Below are positions 9,502 through 32,299 of a stretch of DNA of 51,131 nucleotides, one piece after another. The stretch is from a virus, in the IMG/VR virus record IMGVR_UViG_3300025133_000157, positions 1-51,131 of that record, one strand, 5' to 3'. A program made the translations under genes and the position numbers. Numbering within the stretch: position 1 is the first letter of the stretch; each line of letters starts with the position of its first letter. Below the pieces are notes generated by a model. It saw only the letters and a program-made list of their open reading frames with translations. It was not told the origin of the DNA and did not search any database.

Positions 9502-10569
9502 TTAATATCCCGTTTCAATATCTTTTCTGGTTAGTGAGACAATTTCTTTAAATCTCAAGTTCAAATTTGTTTGTACAGCGAAACCATCGTTGAATTGTGA
9601 GAGTCCATCGGATGATTCATATACAACTTCAACGCTTTCTAGAACGCATTTTTTAGTTTTAAATGGTATTTTCTTCCCTTCCTCGTCCATTGGATTATTA
9701 AGTCTGATAATAAAGACATCGGGAAATTTCCAAAATGCGTTAGTTGTATCCTGTGTCAAGGGTTCTGGGTGTGAATATTTTTTAAACATCAATACCATTC
9801 TTTGTATTGTCTCACTCTCTTTTTCGTTTCGTGGTAAAAATGAGAAAGAGAAATCAAATGTTCTGAATTCAGGTCTCGAAAATAGTATTTCCAAATTCGG
9901 ATTTCTGGCGAGACCAAATTGTCCAAAAATCTTCGAACTTGTTTGATTGTCAATAACTTTTTTCGCTAATCCTTGTCCCGCTGCAGTTGCGAACGCATCA
10001 GCAGCGGAAGCATTATTACCCTTCATTTCTGATATTATTTTAGATACAATACCATGCTCTGTCTCATTATAACTCATATTGTACGACGTTTTTAATGATC
10101 CCTGCGGTACGTAAACTTGAATAGTTTTATTATAATCGATACCTTCAGTTGTCTCATCTTTCGACGCTTCTATAATATCGCTAAATGATGCTTGTTGTCC
10201 TTTTGGTTTTGACGCTATCGCTTTCCTGATATTATCACCCACAGCAGCACGTTCAAGTATTTTAAATTCTAATGTTGAGGATTGGGTTGGCATTACATGT
10301 GGATATATCAATGTTTCTGGTGTAGTATCCGCTTCATATTTTTTAAATGCTATTCCCGGATTATTGAAAGATAGACCGAGTATATTGTTAAATGCTTTGT
10401 TCAAAAGTTGATCCTTTTTACTGGCTATTAATGATCTTGGATCTTTGAACGCATCTAGTTTGTCTTCTAATTTATCAAACTTCCCCTTGACTGCATTGAA
10501 TTTGGAGTCGACTTTTCCTTGTATTTTGTTGATCTTCCCGATCATCTTTCCAATATTGATTTTTCCCAT
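9502..10569 (-). CDS. 48: Baseplate tail-tube cap protein gp48-like
   Basis: This is the first gene of the minus-strand operon. The C-terminal half carries the pattern of gp48/gp54-type proteins: FDFSFSFLPRNEKESETIQR, MVLMFKKYSHPE, FWKFPDVFIIRL and a final strand region LNLRFKEIVSL. From the ATG at 10569 the product has 355 aa, close to T4 gp48 (364 aa). A longer ORF starts at 10623, but it would include the divergent late promoter at 10578-10585, so I prefer the internal start. gp54 is the alternative identity. Confidence 0.75.
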   Translation of the reverse strand: MGKINIGKMIGKINKIQGKVDSKFNAVKGKFDKLEDKLDAFKDPRSLIASKKDQLLNKAFNNILGLSFNNPGIAFKKYEADTTPETLIYPHVMPTQSSTLEFKILERAAVGDNIRKAIASKPKGQQASFSDIIEASKDETTEGIDYNKTIQVYVPQGSLKTSYNMSYNETEHGIVSKIISEMKGNNASAADAFATAAGQGLAKKVIDNQTSSKIFGQFGLARNPNLEILFSRPEFRTFDFSFSFLPRNEKESETIQRMVLMFKKYSHPEPLTQDTTNAFWKFPDVFIIRLNNPMDEEGKKIPFKTKKCVLESVEVVYESSDGLSQFNDGFAVQTNLNLRFKEIVSLTRKDIETGY

Positions 10570-10571
10570 AG

Positions 10572-10579
10572 TATAACTA
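10572..10579 (+). promoter_or_regulatory. Late promoter variant (TATAACTA) for gp4
   Basis: TATAACTA, one base from the T4 late core, lies 5 nt before the gp4 ATG. The expected start of transcription is the A of that ATG. It overlaps the opposite-strand TATAAATA, forming a compact divergent promoter. Confidence 0.4.
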
Positions 10580-10585
10580 TTTATA
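10578..10585 (-). promoter_or_regulatory. T4-type late promoter for the baseplate operon
   Basis: The reverse complement is TATAAATA. It is 8 nt from the chosen gp48 ATG, giving a leader of about 3 nt. It overlaps the gp4 start codon on the other strand. Confidence 0.65.
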
Positions 10586-11043
10586 TGTCTTACAAAGGAA
10601 AATACACTCCTAAAAACCCTCAAAAATACAAGGGTTCGGTGTCAAAAATAGTTTACCGTTCATTATGGGAACGAAAGTTTATGCGTTATTGTGATGCTCA
10701 CCCTGGAATCATAGAATGGTCGTCGGAGGAAATAGCGATACCGTACTACTCTCCTGTTGATAGAAAAATGCACAGGTACTTTCCAGACTTTTTAATAACA
10801 ATGAAAAGTAATGGTGGTAATTTTAAAACATTGATGATAGAAGTAAAACCTGCTGCTCAAACGAAAGTCCTGGGTGCTAATCATTATTTGCAAGAAACAC
10901 ACTGGAAAAAGAAACGAAGAAAATTAAAAGAGTTCTTGACATTTAAGACAAACCATGCTAAATGGGAAGCGGCGAAGGTATTTTGTGAACGATACGGGTG
11001 GGAATTTAAGATACTGACTGAGAAGGAGTTGAAAATAAAATGA
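10585..11043 (+). CDS. 4: Head completion protein gp4
   Basis: The product has 152 aa (T4 gp4, 150 aa) and matches it along its length: MSYKGKYTPKNPQKYKG, IVYRSLWERKF, IIEWSSEEIAIPYY and a C-terminal YGWEFKILTE. The RYFPDFLI ... MIEVKP segment has the D and ExK spacing of PD-(D/E)XK nuclease folds. gp4 completes filled heads before tail joining. An ORF start exists at 10519, but homology begins at 10585. The stop overlaps the next start by four bases. Confidence 0.9.
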   Translation: MSYKGKYTPKNPQKYKGSVSKIVYRSLWERKFMRYCDAHPGIIEWSSEEIAIPYYSPVDRKMHRYFPDFLITMKSNGGNFKTLMIEVKPAAQTKVLGANHYLQETHWKKKRRKLKEFLTFKTNHAKWEAAKVFCERYGWEFKILTEKELKIK

Positions 11044-11645
11044 GTTCATTCAAACAAATATTGAAACTAGCCCGATTGAATGAATCCTTTGAAAAATTAA
11101 AAGAGGATAGCGCTAAATGGGCAGAAAGTCGTATGCGTCACGCATCACAAAAAGTCGTTAGAACCGGCAAAATTAGTATTTTTAAAGAGAGAGCTTTACC
11201 TGGTCGGATATACCAATTTGCATATGACGCAAAACATAAAAAAACATTACCATATTTTGACTCTTTTCCGTATGTACTAGTATTAGAAAGTAAAGGTGAT
11301 AGTTTTTTGGGTTTGAATCTTCATTATCTCCCAATATGGTATCGAGCAATATTATTCGATAGATTGAAGGTTCTAGCGCGCCACCCGGATGGACAACCGA
11401 GTGAAACATCAAAATTTTTAATTCGATATGATCTAATAAAAAGTGTCAGAAAATACCGATACCACAAACCAGCGCTCAAAAAATATTTGTATACTCAACT
11501 TCGCAGTCCTTTATTTCATATCCCAGGTAATTATTGGAATATAGCATTATTCCTTCCAACATACGATTTTATGGCAAATGGGTCGCAGATAAGAACAAAA
11601 AGAGTACATTTTGACAGTAGACGCACTATAAATAAAGGTCTATGA
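11040..11645 (+). CDS. Conserved T4-like protein next to gp4 (201 aa)
   Basis: The central part (PGRIYQFAYDAKHKKTLPYF, then FPYVLVLE and FLGLNLHYLP) is a pattern I associate with an unnamed conserved protein of marine T4-like phages. It overlaps gp4 by ATGA, so it is co-translated with a head gene and may be a head or neck factor. DNA end protector gp2, which neighbours gp4 in T4, is a possible identity but not one I can support from the sequence. Basic and aromatic residues are frequent. Confidence 0.8.
   Translation: MSSFKQILKLARLNESFEKLKEDSAKWAESRMRHASQKVVRTGKISIFKERALPGRIYQFAYDAKHKKTLPYFDSFPYVLVLESKGDSFLGLNLHYLPIWYRAILFDRLKVLARHPDGQPSETSKFLIRYDLIKSVRKYRYHKPALKKYLYTQLRSPLFHIPGNYWNIALFLPTYDFMANGSQIRTKRVHFDSRRTINKGL
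11627..11634 (+). promoter_or_regulatory. T4-type late promoter before the gp54-like gene
   Basis: Exact TATAAATA, 7 nt before the ATG at 11642. The gap also contains AAGG, which is either a very close ribosome site or irrelevant if the transcript begins about 2 nt before the ATG. Confidence 0.65.
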
Positions 11646-12283
11646 TATCTTTAGAAAAATTCAAATCGGATATAGGAAGTCGATCAACTACAAAATCGTC
11701 AAGATTCATTGTAGAAATTTTCCCACCCAGTATACTATCGGAGATTGACACTTCACAGTTAACCTTTAGATGTGATTCTTCCGAATTACCGGGCAGAAGT
11801 ATTACTTCGACTGAACATAGGACTGTTGGGCCCGCTCGCAAGCGACCAAATCAGTCTGGTTATGCTGATTTGAATATCACTCTGATTTGTTCGGCGTCGT
11901 TCCAAGAGAAAAAATTCTTCGATCAATGGCAAAATCAAATACAATCCACTGAAGATTTTAAATTTGGATACTACGATGAGTATATATCTACGCTCCATGT
12001 GACACAATTAAATGATGAATTGCAACCAATATACAAAATAGAAGTGTTAGAATGCTGGCCCATGGTGGTTGCTCCAATGCCATTAAATTGGGAAACGACG
12101 AACGACTTACAGAAGGTTCAAATAACATTTGCATACCGAAAATGGGATGAAATGGAAACCACTCTTTTTGGAGTATCCGCTCCTGGTGAGAAATTTAAGG
12201 AAGAGATTAATAAGCGTGTCAGCAGTTCCCTAAGTCGCATAACTTCCTCAAAAATTAATATAAATAAGTTCATTAAATTATAA
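11642..12283 (+). CDS. Tail-tube-fold protein, probably tube initiator gp54-like
   Basis: The 213 aa product contains FRCDSSELPGRSITSTEHRT, ADLNITLICSASF and FFDQWQNQI, the pattern of the tube-protein fold shared by gp19, gp48 and gp54. At 213 aa it is longer than gp19 (163 aa) and shorter than T4 gp54 (320 aa). The position in the hub and tape-measure block favours a tube initiator or baseplate-tube adaptor over the main tube protein. It has its own late promoter. Confidence 0.65.
   Translation: MISLEKFKSDIGSRSTTKSSRFIVEIFPPSILSEIDTSQLTFRCDSSELPGRSITSTEHRTVGPARKRPNQSGYADLNITLICSASFQEKKFFDQWQNQIQSTEDFKFGYYDEYISTLHVTQLNDELQPIYKIEVLECWPMVVAPMPLNWETTNDLQKVQITFAYRKWDEMETTLFGVSAPGEKFKEEINKRVSSSLSRITSSKININKFIKL
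12259..12266 (+). promoter_or_regulatory. T4-type late promoter for gp26
   Basis: Exact TATAAATA inside the end of the preceding gene, 31 nt before the gp26 ATG. The leader of about 26 nt contains the SD AAGGTGAT. Confidence 0.55.
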
Positions 12284-12297
12284 AAAGGTGATATATT

Positions 12298-13029
12298 ATG
12301 GCAACAACCCTACCAAAATTGTCGGTACCAACGTATACTGACTATCTTATTTCTACCGGAAAAGAGTTCAAATATAGAACATTCCTAGTCGGCGAAGAAT
12401 CCAAACTGCTTCTGTTGAAAGAGGGAGCGGAAGAATCCGAAATGTATAATACCATCCAAGAATTGGTTGAAGCATGTACATTCGGGGAATTGGACGTAAC
12501 CAAATTACCAACATACGACATTGAGCATATTTTTGTTCTATTAAGGAAAAAATCTGTTGGTGAAGTTGTGGATCTCGTTGTTAATCACGGTGAGGATGCC
12601 GAATGTAAACATAAGCAAGAAGTTTCGCTGAATTTGAATGATATCGTAGTTGAAAACAAACCCGATGAGTCAAAATCAAAAATATTACTTGATAAGAATA
12701 AGGGTATCGGTATAAAATTGAGACACCCAAATTATGGCGATCTCGCAAATTTTGGAACTATGAACAACCAGTTTGAATTCCTCATGAAGATTATAGTGCT
12801 CTGCACCGAATATATCTATCAGGGTGACCAAGTATTCCATTTAAAGGATTTCACGGACGCTGAAGTAAATGAATTCTTTGCTGGATGTTCAAGCGCTCAA
12901 CAACTGACAGAAGTTGGTAAATTCTTTGAAAACTCACCAAAATTAGTATATAACCTGAAGTGGAAATGTGAAAAATGTAAAAAAGAAGATGAAGTTCGCT
13001 TGGAGGGACTCAAGAATTTTTTATTGTAA
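12298..13029 (+). CDS. 26: Baseplate hub / tail assembly protein gp26
   Basis: Homolog of T4 gp26 (208 aa; 243 aa here). The N-terminus TLPKLSVPTYTDYLISTGKE and FKYRTFLVGEE, and the C-terminal KWKCEKC and RLEGLKNFL, are the family landmarks, with a CxxC pair near the end. It precedes the tape measure, like the tail assembly chaperones of other phages. The last codons read TTT TTA TTG TAA, and the TTTTTTA run lets ribosomes slip into the -1 frame and add 62 residues. Confidence 0.85.
   Translation: MATTLPKLSVPTYTDYLISTGKEFKYRTFLVGEESKLLLLKEGAEESEMYNTIQELVEACTFGELDVTKLPTYDIEHIFVLLRKKSVGEVVDLVVNHGEDAECKHKQEVSLNLNDIVVENKPDESKSKILLDKNKGIGIKLRHPNYGDLANFGTMNNQFEFLMKIIVLCTEYIYQGDQVFHLKDFTDAEVNEFFAGCSSAQQLTEVGKFFENSPKLVYNLKWKCEKCKKEDEVRLEGLKNFLL
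13017..13023 (+). other. Probable -1 ribosomal frameshift site (T TTT TTA)
   Basis: The heptamer T TTT TTA is in the correct register for -1 slippage, two codons before the gp26 stop. The -1 frame is open from 13023 to 13211 and encodes a gp51-like tail. A weak stem (13042-13046 with 13054-13058) lies 18 nt downstream, farther than usual for a stimulator. Confidence 0.7.
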
Positions 13030-13211
13030 CGCTGTCTCATGATAGTATAGAAAACTATTATAGACTGAATTTTTCAATTGTTCATCATACAAATGATTTT
13101 TCACTGACGGAACTGGAGAACATGATGCCATACGAAAGAGAAATTTACGTCAGTTTGCTTGAGACGGCGATACAAAAAGAGAACGAAGAGCGTGCTAAAA
13201 ATAAGTCATAA
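13023..13211 (+). CDS. gp51-like extension reached by -1 frameshift from gp26
   Basis: The -1 frame after the slippery site encodes 62 residues, including LSHDSIENYYRLNFSIVHH, FSLTELENMMPYEREIYVSL and a charged helix ending NEERAKNKS. This pattern belongs to the gp51-like baseplate hub assembly proteins of T4-like phages. There is no ATG before the internal MM, so the N-terminal part can only be made by frameshift or by an unusual start. The fusion would have about 304 aa, arranged like the lambda G-GT tail chaperones just before the tape measure. Confidence 0.75.
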   Translation: MVTLSHDSIENYYRLNFSIVHHTNDFSLTELENMMPYEREIYVSLLETAIQKENEERAKNKS

Positions 13212-13214
13212 ATA
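13207..13214 (+). promoter_or_regulatory. Late promoter variant (CATAAATA) before the tape measure
   Basis: CATAAATA lies 6 nt before the ATG at 13221. The predicted transcript begins about 1 nt before the start codon, and there is no SD in the gap. Confidence 0.45.
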
Positions 13215-13220
13215 AGACAT

Positions 13221-15830
13221 ATGGCACAAAATCTACCCCAATTATCAAATATTCCCGCATCCAAAAAGGATTTAGAGGAAGTTTTACTTGAAATTGCTGA
13301 TCTCATTGTATCGGGATTCAAGACTAATATAAAATCATTCATTAAACCCCTGACAAAATTGGGTGCTGATTTGTCGACTAATATCGAATCTGTAACAAAC
13401 AATCTTTCTTCCAATCTAGAATCGATAATCGATCCAATCGCTGAATCGTTATATAGCATATTATCTGAATTGGGTGCATCTTTACATATTATAGCAAATA
13501 CTCTGTCTGTTATAGGTACTACAATTTGGGATTTTCATAAATCTATGTTTGTTCTTTTGAATAATATATTAAATTTAATGTCCGATTTAATAGGAACTCC
13601 GTCAGATGATACCCAAGACCGGAGTGTCAAATTGATAGAGTATCACCCAACAAATGATAGTTCACCTGTTGATTCGGACACTCAAAGAGAAGATTCTATT
13701 AGAGAACAAAAAACTGAGAAAAGCAGAAAAGACAATGATAAAATAGAGAAAAAAGAGAATGATACTCTAGATGAAATAAAGGAAAATACCAAACCGAAAG
13801 TTGAAAAGAAAAAGGATGATGATGAATTGGGTTTTGGTGTTTTATTCCTCGCTGCAGCGGGACTGGGAATATTATTTGGAACATTGGCTGGTATAATATC
13901 AGCGGTTGTTTGGAGAATTTCGACATTTTTAAAAATTATGAAAGACCTCACAATAACCCTACCCAAAACAATATTAAAAATGTTGGGTTTTGATATTAAG
14001 GATGTTTCCAAATCATTCACAGGAAAATTAGCATCAGCAGCATCTGAATTCGCCGGAAAAATTAAGGATAAGATGAAAATACTGAAAGGGAAAATATTAT
14101 CAGCATTGGAATACCTGTCGAATAAATTTACAAAACTAAAAAAGATTATCATGCCAATCTTTCAAAATTTTGGTAATAAATTTAAGTCCATTGGTGATTT
14201 GTTTGGTGATTTAGGAAAAGATTTATCCCTAATAAAATCATTTCTTCCAAAAATGCCCGGCGGCGGACTTACAAAAATGTTCTCACCCATTACAAAATTT
14301 TTCAATGTATTTAAGTGGTTTTTTAAAATTTTTAAAGGTATATTCCGTACAATCTTGGGACCGATAGGAATAGTGGTAGACTTACTGACTTCAATCCCAC
14401 GCATAATAAAGTCATTTTCCGATGGTGGAATAATAGAAGGATTGAAAACTACTGTAGAAGAGTTTTTTAGAGCATTTATCGGTGATATTGGGAACCTTAT
14501 AAAAAGTGTTGTATCATGGATCGCAGAAAAACTTGGTTTCACCGAATTTTCAAAAATGTTGGATGGATTTGATTTTAATGAAGCTTTCAGTGGTATTTTA
14601 GATGGAATTGAAAATATGATCGGCGGCGTTGTCGATTGGGTAAAAGAAAAATTCGATTCATTCATGAAGCGATGGGAAGAGGATGGTATACTTTCCGCTA
14701 TAGTTGGAACTTACTTTGAGATACTTAAGGATGAATTGAATTTCTTGGGTGCTATATTCGATTCAATAGTAAAAACCGTAACCGGTTTCGTTTCAAGTAT
14801 TTTTGGTGGAGCGGAGGGTGCAGAGGAAACTAAATCGGAGGGTGCAGAGGAAACTAAATCAGAAGATGGCATCTTCTCCAAGATTTCAAATGGTTTCAAG
14901 TCTGTCATGGACGCATTAAAACCGATCGGTGAATCTATATCAACAGTTTTAGATCCATTAATAAACTATTTGAATGGATTTATAGAGGGAGTCCCAGCAC
15001 TCAAGGATATAAAAACTAAAGTTATGGGTATGTTTGATGCTTTCGTTGATACCATAAAATATGTCATAGATAAAATAACGACGTTAGTGAAAATGATGAA
15101 TCCATTAACATTGGCGGGAAAAGCTGTCAGCGCTGTATCAAATATATGGGGGGGTGCTAAGAGTTTTTTTGGTATGGGTGGTGACGAAAGACAATCAAGT
15201 ATCGAAAAGGCGAGCGAATTAAAACAAAATACAAAATCATCTCAAACTAACAACACATTAGAAAAATCATCTCAAACTAACAACACATTAGAAAAATCAT
15301 CTCAAACTAACAACACATCAGAAAAATCATCTCAAACTAACAACACATCAGAAAGAGTTTCCATAGCTGATAGGGGTTTTAATTCTGTTACAAATAACGA
15401 TGAAAAAACATCTCAAACTAACAACACATCAGAAAGAAAAAATGAAAAAGTTAGCGCTCTAGTATCAGAAACAGTCAGATTGCAAATGGAAAGAGATAGA
15501 ATTGCATCACAAACAAGCGGAAAAATAGAATATAAAAATATGACTGTGGGTGATTATCTAAAATACATAGAACCAAACCAAGAGGAAAAAGATCGTTTCT
15601 TACAACAACAAAAACAAATAAAACCCATTCAAAAGAATAGAGGATCAGGAGTAGTTTCCAATTTAGAAGATAAATTTCAGTTGGATGGACTTACAGGTTC
15701 TCAGGCTCCATCAACTATTATAAATAACGTCACAAATGTCAATTCACCAAGCAATACGAACACGAATATAGTACATTCACCGAATGATTCGAATATACTT
15801 GGTTCACATGACAGGACAAGTGCGAGGTAA
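13221..15830 (+). CDS. Tail tape measure protein candidate (gp29 position, 869 aa)
   Basis: The protein follows the gp26/gp51 assembly pair, as a tape measure should. It is long, mostly helical, with a charged coiled-coil-like region near residues 150-200 (many Lys, Glu, Asp), a strongly hydrophobic segment at about 205-230 (FGVLFLAAAGLGILFGTLAG) and repeated amphipathic stretches with GVVDWVKEKFD-type motifs. The C-terminal quarter has SQTNNT repeats. T4 gp29 is shorter (590 aa). Another large internal tail or head protein is possible, but position and composition fit a tape measure best. Confidence 0.65.
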   Translation: MAQNLPQLSNIPASKKDLEEVLLEIADLIVSGFKTNIKSFIKPLTKLGADLSTNIESVTNNLSSNLESIIDPIAESLYSILSELGASLHIIANTLSVIGTTIWDFHKSMFVLLNNILNLMSDLIGTPSDDTQDRSVKLIEYHPTNDSSPVDSDTQREDSIREQKTEKSRKDNDKIEKKENDTLDEIKENTKPKVEKKKDDDELGFGVLFLAAAGLGILFGTLAGIISAVVWRISTFLKIMKDLTITLPKTILKMLGFDIKDVSKSFTGKLASAASEFAGKIKDKMKILKGKILSALEYLSNKFTKLKKIIMPIFQNFGNKFKSIGDLFGDLGKDLSLIKSFLPKMPGGGLTKMFSPITKFFNVFKWFFKIFKGIFRTILGPIGIVVDLLTSIPRIIKSFSDGGIIEGLKTTVEEFFRAFIGDIGNLIKSVVSWIAEKLGFTEFSKMLDGFDFNEAFSGILDGIENMIGGVVDWVKEKFDSFMKRWEEDGILSAIVGTYFEILKDELNFLGAIFDSIVKTVTGFVSSIFGGAEGAEETKSEGAEETKSEDGIFSKISNGFKSVMDALKPIGESISTVLDPLINYLNGFIEGVPALKDIKTKVMGMFDAFVDTIKYVIDKITTLVKMMNPLTLAGKAVSAVSNIWGGAKSFFGMGGDERQSSIEKASELKQNTKSSQTNNTLEKSSQTNNTLEKSSQTNNTSEKSSQTNNTSERVSIADRGFNSVTNNDEKTSQTNNTSERKNEKVSALVSETVRLQMERDRIASQTSGKIEYKNMTVGDYLKYIEPNQEEKDRFLQQQKQIKPIQKNRGSGVVSNLEDKFQLDGLTGSQAPSTIINNVTNVNSPSNTNTNIVHSPNDSNILGSHDRTSAR
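14813..14860 (+). repeat. Two tandem 24-nt units in the tape measure gene
   Basis: Units at 14813-14836 and 14837-14860 are almost identical and encode EGAEETKS twice. The repeat is in frame and lies in a linker between hydrophobic helices. Confidence 0.85.
15241..15436 (+). repeat. 30-nt repeats encoding SQTNNT[L/S]E
   Basis: Four contiguous 30-nt units begin at 15241, 15271, 15301 and 15331. A fifth partial unit lies at 15412-15436. Each encodes KSSQTNNTLE or the SE variant. Units 1-2 and 3-4 share the same T/C difference, suggesting pairwise expansion. Confidence 0.95.
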
Positions 15831-23844: not shown

Positions 23845-25002
23845 ATGGAGGTTAAAGAAAGGACAGAACAAATGAATATGACCGAATTGGTTGTTTTTCT
23901 TCAAACTGAATATCCCGAATTAGTACAATCTATGAAGGACTCGAACCATCACTACGATGAAGAAAATTTGAATCCTTATCACCTCGAAGGTGACGTATGG
24001 ACTCATACAATGTTGGTTACACAGGCGCTCGAGAAGTTTAAATTTCATAATCAATTTGATATTGTGAAAATTGGAGCGATCCTTCATGACCTGGGAAAAC
24101 CCCTTGCAAGAGAAGAAGTTCACGAAAAAAAGAGAGCTAGATTTATTGGACATGAGGGTATCTCTTTTCACCTTGCTGTTGACGTTGTAAACAAGATTTT
24201 TGATCGTTTTAAACCGTTCGATGCCGAATCACACAGTAATGTGAATAAAAAGATCCTTCTTGAGGCGATTGCTCTTCATGGGACTCTCTTCAAAATGTCC
24301 AAAACAAAATTTGAAAAATCTTTCAATAAGATGTTTCAATATAATCCAGCATTGGCACAAACTGTTTTGGGAATTGCTCTTGCTGATGGAACCGGTCGAT
24401 ATTACCAAGACGAAGCGCCCGAAACGATGGAACAATTTGAAAATAAAGTTGCTCCTCTCATTAGCAAATTGGATTCTAAAATTCAAGTTTTGACTGACAG
24501 GGATATTGGTCCTTTCGCTGGCGATATTAATGATAGACCATATGTAAAAATTATGGTTGGATTGCCCGCTTCTGGGAAATCGACATATGCACAAAAAGAA
24601 GCAAAAACGACTCAAGCAAAAATTATTTCAAGGGATAATTTGGTTGAAGAACTTTCTGAAGTTAAAGGTATCTCTTATGATGATGCTTGGAAGAGTGATT
24701 TTCCTTTCGATGAAGTTATAAGGGATTCCATTAGAACTGCTGTAAAAGATGGAAGATCTATCATTGTTGATATGACTCACATGGGTCCTAAATCTAGACG
24801 ACGTTCTATGGCATCTATCCCAAAAGAATATATTAAGATTGTTACTGTTATTACGGAACCTTTTAATACTATCGTTGAGAGGAACGCAAAAAGAGTGGGT
24901 AAAACTATCACTATGAAAACTTTGGTTCGAATGATGAAAGAATTTGTTCCACCAATGTATAATGACTTCGATTCCATCGAATACCCAAACCTTGGAGTTT
25001 AA
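23845..25002 (+). CDS. HD-Pnk: HD phosphohydrolase fused to polynucleotide kinase
   Basis: Residues about 30-230 form an HD domain (His54, HD at 81-82, HE at 103-104, a later Asp in ADGTGRYY). Residues 232-385 form a P-loop kinase with GLPASGKST at 239-247, ISRDN, DMTHMG at 309-314 and RNAKRVGK. This order matches bacterial HD-Pnk enzymes such as that of Runella slithyformis, which remove 2',3' phosphates and add a 5' phosphate. Here HD replaces the HAD phosphatase of T4 Pnk. The gene overlaps the Rnl2-type ligase that would seal the healed ends. Start is 23845 if leaderless, or 23872 with AAAGGA as SD. Confidence 0.88.
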   Translation: MEVKERTEQMNMTELVVFLQTEYPELVQSMKDSNHHYDEENLNPYHLEGDVWTHTMLVTQALEKFKFHNQFDIVKIGAILHDLGKPLAREEVHEKKRARFIGHEGISFHLAVDVVNKIFDRFKPFDAESHSNVNKKILLEAIALHGTLFKMSKTKFEKSFNKMFQYNPALAQTVLGIALADGTGRYYQDEAPETMEQFENKVAPLISKLDSKIQVLTDRDIGPFAGDINDRPYVKIMVGLPASGKSTYAQKEAKTTQAKIISRDNLVEELSEVKGISYDDAWKSDFPFDEVIRDSIRTAVKDGRSIIVDMTHMGPKSRRRSMASIPKEYIKIVTVITEPFNTIVERNAKRVGKTITMKTLVRMMKEFVPPMYNDFDSIEYPNLGV

Positions 25003-26673: not shown

Positions 26674-26963
26674 TGGGTCTACTATACTCTATTTGTATAA
26701 TGAAGGACACAAACAAGGAAGAGAACTTTGGGTTATACTATTCGGGTTATAAAGAATTATTAGACGGTGGAGTACATGTCGTTAATGATTTGACTCGAAA
26801 AATAATAGATGGCGAGTTCACTATGGAAGAGTGTGTTCCTTTGGATGGAAGTTTAAGCGTGAAAGGTCAATGTTGGCACGATACAGTAATGTTTTGCTGT
26901 GATGATTTGATAACGACAACCGACAATACAACAAAACTAAATTATGATTTTAAAAAAGAGTGA
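26673..26963 (+). CDS. Unknown protein (96 aa)
   Basis: No family is recognised. It has several Cys and His residues near the end (KGQCWHDTVMFCCDD) that might bind metal. ATG overlaps the previous stop (TGATG). ATG 26700 is an alternative start. It overlaps the next gene by 20 nt in another frame. Its place in the operon suggests co-expression with the RNA repair and modification-like genes. Confidence 0.65.
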   Translation: MGLLYSICIMKDTNKEENFGLYYSGYKELLDGGVHVVNDLTRKIIDGEFTMEECVPLDGSLSVKGQCWHDTVMFCCDDLITTTDNTTKLNYDFKKE

Positions 26964-28068
26964 TGCCGAATATGCGGCGCAGTATTTTATAGATTATTAT
27001 GGTCCTATCAATAGTATCGAAGATTACCAGCGAAAGGTAAAACTTTCAAGGATGGTGGATTATTCAAGTCCGCTGTTGGGAATGGGTGGATTAGAAGACG
27101 ATTTATTTGACGAATATGATATTCACCCAAAAGACATGAAATTTAAAATTATTGATTGTTCAAAGGATTCATATTATAACGCTTCACATTGTAATGATTT
27201 ACTTGAGATAACAACTAGCGCTCCCGTTGAGGCGGGTGCGCCCGTGAGGATGTTACGCTGGATTTTATTAGAAACCACTACAAATAAAGTTGTGGGTTTT
27301 ATTAGATTGTGTTCACCCGTCATAAATTGCAAACCTAGAAATGATTGGTTGGGAAGTGTGCCGGAATTGTTCAGATTTAATGAACATGTAAACATGGGCA
27401 CAATTATCGTTCCAGTGCAACCTTTTGGATACAATTTGATTGGTGGAAAACTGTTAACGCTATTGTGTTGCTGTCATGAAACCAGAGAAGCATTCAATAA
27501 AAAATATGGTTGTGATATAACACTTTTTGAAACGACGAGTTTATATGGTTCGACGAAGCAGAGTTCACAATATGATGGAATGAAGCCCTTTGTTAGATTC
27601 AGAGGATTAACCGATTCTAATTTTGCACCCATGCTTCATGATGAATATTTTCGAAATTTGGAGAAATATTTTATTGATCGAAATGACGGGAAACCATTAG
27701 TAACGTCAGCATCGAGCAGGAAAATGAAAGCGCAAAATAAGATGATTTCTATTATTCGTGCTTCTCTCCCAAAAGATCATAAACTGATTTTAGAATTTAA
27801 TGAAGTTTTGAAAAAATCAAAAGGGATAACAGAACAGAAAAGATATTATCAATCAACGCTCGGATTTTCCAATTCCAGGGAAGTCATTTTGGGACAAGAG
27901 GAACCGAAAATCGATCCAGTAAACCACCACAAATTTCATTGGGAATTTATGTTAAATTGGTGGCAGAAAAAAGCAGGAAACCGGTTTGAAAAACTGAGGA
28001 AAGATGGACGAATGAGAACTGAGTTAGAAGTATGGAACCGTGACATGGACATTCAGATTATACGATGA
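26944..28068 (+). CDS. DUF4338-like (DruA/Mom-related) protein (374 aa)
   Basis: The central part reads VGFIRLCSPVINCKPRNDWLG, MGTIIVPVQPFGYNLIGGKL, FNKKYGCDITLFETTSLYG and later a YDG. This arrangement resembles DUF4338 (present in DruA of the Druantia defence system) and GNAT-like Mom proteins, where a ...LLETF...YG segment forms the core. The C-terminal 130 residues are charged and aromatic. The reaction is unknown. A glycosyltransferase follows 12 nt later, so a nucleic-acid modification cassette is possible. Family assignment is from pattern recall only. Confidence 0.6.
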   Translation: MILKKSDAEYAAQYFIDYYGPINSIEDYQRKVKLSRMVDYSSPLLGMGGLEDDLFDEYDIHPKDMKFKIIDCSKDSYYNASHCNDLLEITTSAPVEAGAPVRMLRWILLETTTNKVVGFIRLCSPVINCKPRNDWLGSVPELFRFNEHVNMGTIIVPVQPFGYNLIGGKLLTLLCCCHETREAFNKKYGCDITLFETTSLYGSTKQSSQYDGMKPFVRFRGLTDSNFAPMLHDEYFRNLEKYFIDRNDGKPLVTSASSRKMKAQNKMISIIRASLPKDHKLILEFNEVLKKSKGITEQKRYYQSTLGFSNSREVILGQEEPKIDPVNHHKFHWEFMLNWWQKKAGNRFEKLRKDGRMRTELEVWNRDMDIQIIR

Positions 28069-30849: not shown

Positions 30850-30866
30850 TTGTAGGAGGACTACAA
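30850..30866 (+). promoter_or_regulatory. Hairpin presenting the SD of the NAMPT gene
   Basis: TTGTAG (30850-30855) pairs with CTACAA (30861-30866), leaving GAGGA in a five-base loop. The last stem base is the A of the ATG. The ribosome site is displayed in the loop and the start codon adjoins the stem. Confidence 0.6.
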
Positions 30867-32299
30867 TGAATATGAGAAATCACTTAAAAAACATTATTAA
30901 CGACTTTATTGACGAAGACTATAACCCAATCCTTGATACGGATTCCTATAAACTTTCCCACTTTAAACAGTATCCACCTGATGCTCACGGGTATTATGGA
31001 TATTTGGAATCTAGGGGTGGAGAGTATGAGAATGTTGTTTTCTTTGGATTGCAATATTTCATGAAGAAATACTTGACCAAGCGTGTAACAATGGAACACA
31101 TCGAAGAGGCGCAAGAATTCGCTGCTCTCCATGGCGAACCATTTAATAGAGAAGGTTGGGAATACATCGTAAACAAGCACGGTGGAAAATTCCCTATCAG
31201 GATCAAAGCAGTTTCAGAAGGTTCGGTTATTCCGACTCATAATATCTTGCTCTCTTTGGAAAGTACAGATGATGAGGTATTTTGGGTGGCTTCTTTCCTC
31301 GAAACTATGATTGTTCGCGCTGTTTGGTATCCAACCACAGTCGCTACTATCAGTTTCCACGTTAAGAAATTGCTTGAAAACTATCACAATATGACAGAAG
31401 GAAATACCGACGCAGTTCCATTTTCTCTACATGATTTTGGTGCTCGTGGCGTTTCATCCTATGAATCGTCTGCTATCGGAGGCGCTTCTCACCTTGTGAA
31501 TTTCATGGGTTCAGATACTGTTGCTGGTGTTAGACTTGCAAACAAATATTATGGAGTTTCTGGGAAGATGGCGGGGTTTTCAATTCCTGCAAGTGAACAC
31601 TCTACAATGACTTCATGGGGAAGAGATGGAGAAGAGGATGCTTACCGAAATATGCTCAACGCATACGGGGAGGAAGGTTCTATTTTTGCATGTGTCTCGG
31701 ACTCATACGATATCTTTAAAGCGACGGAGTCGCTGTGGGGCGATAAATTACGTGAGGAAGTTATCAAATCTGGTGTTACTCTTGTTGTTCGTCCAGACTC
31801 GGGTGATCCAAAAACAGTTGTTACAAAACTCATTCAAATCCTAGAACAGAAATTTGGTTCGATTGTGAATGATAAGGGATATAAAGTTTTGAACTATGTT
31901 AAGATCATTCAGGGTGATGGCGTCAATCCGAAATCGATTCATGATATTCTAGAAGCGATAACTGGATTGGGTTTCAGCGCTTCAAATATTGCATTTGGAA
32001 TGGGTGGAGGATTACTACAACAACTGGATAGGGATACCCAGAAATTTGCTTTGAAATGTTCCTCAATTCAGCGTGATGGTATTTGGCATGACGTTTATAA
32101 GGAACCAGCGACCGATCCTGGGAAGAATTCTAAAGCGGGCAAATTGGTGCTTGTGAAGGAAGGCGGACAAATTAAAACCATTCGAAAATCCGAATTTAAC
32201 AGGGAAACACAAGAATCAATGCTAGAAACGGTATTTGAAGATGGAAATATTTTGAAGACTTATACATTCGACGAAGTTAGAGAAAATTCTAACCGTTAA
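30866..32299 (+). CDS. nadV: Nicotinamide phosphoribosyltransferase (NAMPT, NadV)
   Basis: Near the N-terminus LDTDSYKLSHFKQYP (24-38) and YGYLESRGG are family signatures. HDFGARGVSS (189-198), the active-site region ASEHSTMTSWGRDGE (from 242, His245), VRPDSGDP and IQGDGVN follow in order. The length (477 aa) is normal. It makes NMN from nicotinamide and PRPP, feeding the NMNAT gene upstream. Phage pairs of this kind rebuild NAD+ destroyed by defence systems (the NARP2 pathway). The SD lies in a hairpin loop. Confidence 0.95.
   Translation: MNMRNHLKNIINDFIDEDYNPILDTDSYKLSHFKQYPPDAHGYYGYLESRGGEYENVVFFGLQYFMKKYLTKRVTMEHIEEAQEFAALHGEPFNREGWEYIVNKHGGKFPIRIKAVSEGSVIPTHNILLSLESTDDEVFWVASFLETMIVRAVWYPTTVATISFHVKKLLENYHNMTEGNTDAVPFSLHDFGARGVSSYESSAIGGASHLVNFMGSDTVAGVRLANKYYGVSGKMAGFSIPASEHSTMTSWGRDGEEDAYRNMLNAYGEEGSIFACVSDSYDIFKATESLWGDKLREEVIKSGVTLVVRPDSGDPKTVVTKLIQILEQKFGSIVNDKGYKVLNYVKIIQGDGVNPKSIHDILEAITGLGFSASNIAFGMGGGLLQQLDRDTQKFALKCSSIQRDGIWHDVYKEPATDPGKNSKAGKLVLVKEGGQIKTIRKSEFNRETQESMLETVFEDGNILKTYTFDEVRENSNR

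Follow-up and report, generated by a model that had tools for sequence, protein, structure and literature searches.

Does the gp26 gene of this marine T4-like phage end at its stop codon, or do some ribosomes continue past it into the gp51-like reading frame that overlaps its 3' end? A preliminary description of the window (the whole 51,131-base IMG/VR virus record) had proposed a programmed -1 frameshift between the two, and the comparison of relatives lends this proposal strong support. At the sequence level, that comparison demonstrates conserved coding in the -1 frame, an invariant heptamer, an enrichment of Shine-Dalgarno (SD)-like motifs and RNA structure around it, and full-length homology with T4 gp51. 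Very probably, then, a programmed -1 frameshift joins gp26 to the gp51-like tail and yields the long form of a tail assembly chaperone (TAC).

gp26 and its genomic neighborhood

The upstream ORF of the pair (Table 1) encodes 243 residues and belongs to the T4 gp26 family; its match to the Pfam T4_baseplate profile spans the whole protein, from residue 17 to residue 242 and from profile position 9 to 218 of 219. The closest predicted-structure neighbors of its AlphaFold model are gp26-type baseplate hub proteins as well. A Foldseek search of the model against the PDB gave no significant match. After realignment, the best two solved chains were 3fgx (Z 7.0, rmsd 4.1, 85 aligned) and 3klu (YqbN; Z 6.5, rmsd 5.4, 87 aligned), both over residues 1–97 only and with Z scores that fall within the noise range of the tool and are too low to settle TAC membership. 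We take both chains to be XkdN-type tail assembly chaperones of the TAC family. A sequence search of solved structures returned chance matches only for gp26 and coiled-coil matches only for the tail. In addition, a Pfam search of the tail found no TAC family, and the best PDB match of the tail model (Z 2.6) is uninformative.

The genes of this region run in the order DNA end protector, tail tube family, gp26 with its tail and tape measure, and the same order, with one additional small gene, occurs in HTVC008M. The gp26/tail pair is thereby placed between tail tube and tape measure, as are TAC genes of the G/GT type. The tape measure ORF does follow, as had been proposed, and starts 9 nt after the end of the -1 tail.

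Farther along the window, positions 26944–28068 match Pfam DruA (Druantia; E=7e-12) and phrog_19197 (E=4e-147) in a phage-borne setting, and positions 30866–32299 encode a nicotinamide phosphoribosyltransferase (phrog_448, E=9e-161), a phage-carried NAD-salvage gene.

Table 1. Features of the gp26/tail locus, with positions in the window.
Feature	Position	Strand	Evidence or remark
Tail-tube-family protein, gp54/gp19-like	11642–12283	+	Upstream of gp26; phrog_45 E=7e-32
gp26, TAC-N-like short form	12298–13029	+	PF12322 E=2.5e-49; phrog_150 E=3.6e-53; AlphaFold pLDDT 88.5
GGAGGG, SD-like putative upstream stimulator	13002–13007	+	9 nt before heptamer; anti-SD duplex -9.8 kcal/mol
T TTT TTA slippery heptamer	13017–13023	+	0-frame register; TTTTTTN in 74/75 loci examined (T4-type set aside)
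-1 frame tail, gp51-like, 62 aa + stop	13023–13211	+	phrog_634 E=1.3e-22; third-position bias from codon 1
gp26 0-frame stop TAA	13027–13029	+	One sense codon (TTG) separates heptamer from stop
Hairpin GCUGUC-UCAU-GAUAGU, putative downstream stimulator	13031–13046	+	7 nt after heptamer
Tape measure protein ORF, 869 aa	13221–15830	+	phrog_5493 E=3e-12

A slippery heptamer and a tail in the -1 frame

At its end, gp26 is read in the 0 frame as AAT TTT TTA TTG TAA. The preliminary description had reported a T TTT TTA heptamer in the right register near the gp26 stop, followed by a gp51-like -1 frame that is open for 62 codons and has no usable start of its own, and these observations hold. The heptanucleotide TTTTTTA alone is common in the window, with 16 forward and 30 reverse occurrences. 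Among the 74 ORFs that span 100 or more codons from stop to stop, gp26 is the only one with an in-register TTTTTTN near its end and a long -1 ORF thereafter.

A C CCA AAC heptamer also occurs in register within positions 24985–25002, 5 codons before the stop of the ORF at 23845–25002. The next gene lies in the -1 frame and overlaps this ORF by ATGA (ATG at 25002), and given this overlap, ordinary coupling is more likely there than slippage.

The gp51-like tail ends at a TAA at 13209–13211 and matches the phrog family of gp51, 'baseplate hub assembly catalyst'. Joined to gp26, it would give a predicted fusion of 242+62=304 residues, with the predicted junction peptide NFLIVTLSHDSIENYYR. In addition, the tail has a weak match at the C terminus of the gp26 profile, phrog_150 (E=5.9e-6), so that some members of that family may carry the tail fused. 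Followed upstream from the tail, the -1 frame runs into a stop codon at a distance of 10 codons.

Annotators have treated gp51 as a separate small protein, which would have to arise by reinitiation after the gp26 stop, and it is in fact annotated as a separate gene in S-PM2, P-SSM2, P-RSM6 and S-CAM7. For the window, a separately reinitiated gp51 is rejected because no ATG, GTG or TTG occurs before codon 34 of the tail; the first start is the ATG ATG at 13122/13125, past the most conserved block.

Conservation among relatives

A search with the tail alone recovered 56 environmental loci in viral contigs, a set thus selected by tail similarity, and every one of the 56 has its tail in the -1 frame relative to gp26 and a run of T where the two meet. 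The junction in relatives had been named at the outset as a place where the proposal could fail for want of conservation, and the heptamer proved to be conserved there. An independent start for the tail, which would likewise have told against the proposal, did not turn up either. With isolates added and T4-type loci set aside, the sole locus without an in-register TTTTTTN among the 75 examined was that of Vibrio phage Kuja.

The T6 run is also absent from three isolates added later, SS3, D504 and Cygsa01. These phages and Kuja keep the -1 tail behind endings such as ATT TTC or CTT TTT C, and the junction of Cygsa01 carries TAATG. These four may slip at another site or rely on stop-start coupling. 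Since they keep the tail without T6, the mechanism is not uniform among relatives.

Counted as distinct at <80% identity, the loci represent 43 lineages with a median pairwise identity of 36%. The wobble base before TTT is a T in 43/43 lineages, despite a residue that may be D, S, N, A or G (P ~1e-11, from own-gene codon use), and the first Phe codon of the slip site is TTT in all 43 (P ~5e-11); these P values take lineages as independent, clustering being the sole phylogenetic correction, and are thus overstated. The last codon of the heptamer varies across lineages and may be TTC, TTT, TTA or TTG (Phe or Leu). Because the residues vary while the slippery T's do not, the protein is less constrained than the nucleotides at this site. 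Of 43 FF dipeptides elsewhere in the gp26 genes, 3 are slippery, and in a codon-by-codon scan both T-run codons rank near the top for constraint on synonymous change.

The start of the tail bears further on reinitiation. Over tail codons 1–12, relatives differ in proportions of 0.32, 0.19 and 0.51 at the first, second and third codon positions, the pattern found in gp26's own frame. An ATG, GTG or TTG does occur somewhere before codon 12 in 26 of the 43 lineages, as reinitiation would need. The 17 others, the window included, have no start there, yet these codons are coding-constrained, which suggests that ribosomes reach them by continuing from gp26. Reinitiation also leaves the invariant T's unexplained, and we consider it highly improbable.

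Such an arrangement could also be generated if an indel from sequencing or assembly had split a single ORF, and a homopolymer does lie at the junction. The window and a second contig, L001, do differ by 2 nt, but elsewhere. At 10092, within the gp48-like gene at 9502–10623, L001 is without 2 nt of the window's T5 run, an indel in one contig. Across the junction itself the two are identical, and the same frame relation recurs at 74 loci, isolates among them. Contradicted by these isolate genomes, the indel is a vanishingly improbable explanation.

Putative stimulatory elements

Across lineages, anti-SD pairing peaks ~9 nt upstream of the heptamer. At the best offset, pairing of <= -4 kcal/mol is reached in ~84% of the 43 lineages vs 6% of background positions. 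Where the peptide EG is encoded at the SD-like site, the codon is GAG in 21 of 28 cases vs 8.4 expected (P=2e-7, with clustering again the only phylogenetic correction), and this excess makes the motif more than a mere by-product of protein sequence.

Downstream, a 60-nt stretch that begins 10 nt past the heptamer's first base has a mean structure z of -2.40 over the 43 lineages (P=2e-11, with the same limit on phylogenetic correction), vs values of -0.8 to +0.2 (about -0.3) in 16 other such stretches, and the majority of predicted hairpins begin 5–8 nt past the heptamer. The hairpin energy is weak in our record (-6 to -10 kcal/mol), for which an alternative, larger hairpin is predicted at 13034–13065. 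The 6-bp hairpin is shared by the locus L006, where G-C stands in place of two G-U pairs. No universal covarying hairpin was found across lineages, and an Rfam search of 12900–13300 gave no match. Since structures differ by lineage, only an enrichment of structure is claimed. Together, the SD-like motif, the heptamer and the downstream structure would amount to a complete bacterial -1 cassette with putative stimulators.

These elements also weigh on transcriptional slippage, by which RNA polymerase would produce mRNAs of altered length from the T run, and hence a fusion without any ribosomal slip. The homopolymer is T6–T8, with T8 at four loci. It is T6 only in most lineages, the window included, and T6 is a short run for RNA polymerase slippage. 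The codon register, the SD-like motif at 9 nt and the structure would all be left unexplained, and transcriptional slippage is accordingly a very improbable source of the fusion.

Reconciliation with T4 gp51

In T4, Aeromonas 31, Klebsiella KP1 and Serratia 92A1, genes 26 and 51 lie on opposite strands, and gene 51 is full-length. The gp51 of these T4-type phages aligns with the whole gp26-tail fusion profile, N-terminal domain included, and for T4, Aeromonas 31 and Klebsiella the alignment to the fusion is end-to-end. For T4 gp51, residues 16–246 match fusion profile positions 24–284 (best domain E=4e-14), and full-length homology to it was found for the fusion only, not for the tail alone. 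T4 gp26 is thus the homolog of the short form and T4 gp51, a single ORF, that of the entire fusion. T4 differs in that short and long forms come from separate genes and gp26 is without a slippery site; the gp26 of T4, KP1 and Serratia keeps the FF end but codes it as TTC TTT, which is non-slippery. An in-frame version of the fusion also occurs, in a Campylobacter phage.

This homology bears on several earlier statements about gp51. The protein of cyanophages was described as 'missing its first ~200 residues' (Sullivan 2010; PMC3037559), and its shortness is accounted for because T4 gp51 is the homolog of the whole gp26-tail fusion. Likewise, gp51 was listed as missing from Aeh1 (PMC3037559); that genome does carry the tail, which extends gp26 in the -1 frame and had gone unannotated. 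No joined CDS for gp26 and the tail was flagged in the annotated isolate records examined. Annotation of these genomes has either overlooked gp51 or listed it as a separate, truncated gene.

With modest confidence, we favor the view that the three-part -1 cassette is usual in marine and other non-T4-type relatives, and that the separate genes of T4 are derived, the slip site having been lost after duplication. If true, T4 would represent a secondary loss rather than an exception to the rule.

A model for gp26 and its proposed fusion

The slippage itself, its efficiency, the ratio of products and the chaperone role are what we infer from the above. One tail assembly chaperone gene would have two decoding outcomes. 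Most ribosomes would stop at the gp26 TAA and release the 243-residue short form. A minority would be delayed at the heptamer, by pairing of the upstream SD-like element with 16S rRNA and by the downstream RNA hairpin. These delayed ribosomes would make a tandem -1 slip on T TTT TTA and translate 62 more codons, giving the gp26-gp51 fusion of ~304 residues. If the two forms divide their roles as lambda gpG and gpGT do, the tape measure would be coated by the short form, and the tail of the long form would recruit the tail tube subunit. The lambda analogy, already drawn in the preliminary description, fits both the order of the genes and what the comparison with T4 gp51 shows.

Comparison with known systems

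No sequence relation was found between lambda G/GT, whose slippery heptamer is G GGA AAG, and the window, which has a T-run heptamer, a strong SD-like element and a PF12322 protein. Xu and colleagues, in 2004, reportedly found the lambda G/GT -1 frameshift to be widely conserved. G-T frameshifting is described in a review as widely conserved in long-tailed phages 'except T4' (Atkins et al. 2016, PMC5009743). In the present comparison, the signal is carried by the majority of the sampled relatives that lie outside the T4 group. T4 gp51 itself is needed for assembly and absent from the particle (PMC3004832).

The preliminary description had considered the extension of the chaperone frameshift to T4-like phages as possibly new, a reading that needs qualifying. 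The TAC genes of T4-like phages, gp26 and gp51 in T4 itself, were reportedly identified by Vladimirov, Gautam, Davidson 2022 (Virology 566:9-15). That work is credited with poly-T slippery sites in the TAC-N genes of T4-like phages (PMC12846349), and a summary of it ascribes a short gene plus a fused long gene to some T4-like phages (PMC10885494). A frameshifted TAC is therefore a known kind, not new for T4-like phages. The present analysis adds weight through its broad comparison, through the putative stimulatory elements and by reconciling the locus with T4, and it supplies exact sites and a predicted junction peptide for testing.

The TAC of Pakpunavirus Adele and the Vandenendeviridae likewise uses a -1 shift at a conserved poly-T (GTTTTT), and was earlier annotated as a separate gene (PMC12846349). 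These phages are of a different family from the window phage, and the likeness is one of mechanism, not a protein comparison. The -1 cassette of E. coli dnaX combines an SD-like motif ~10 nt upstream, a heptamer and a downstream hairpin, a layout shared with the window locus. The two differ in that the window has the heptamer T TTT TTN and in that its slip would add a C-terminal tail, whereas the dnaX slip truncates the protein.
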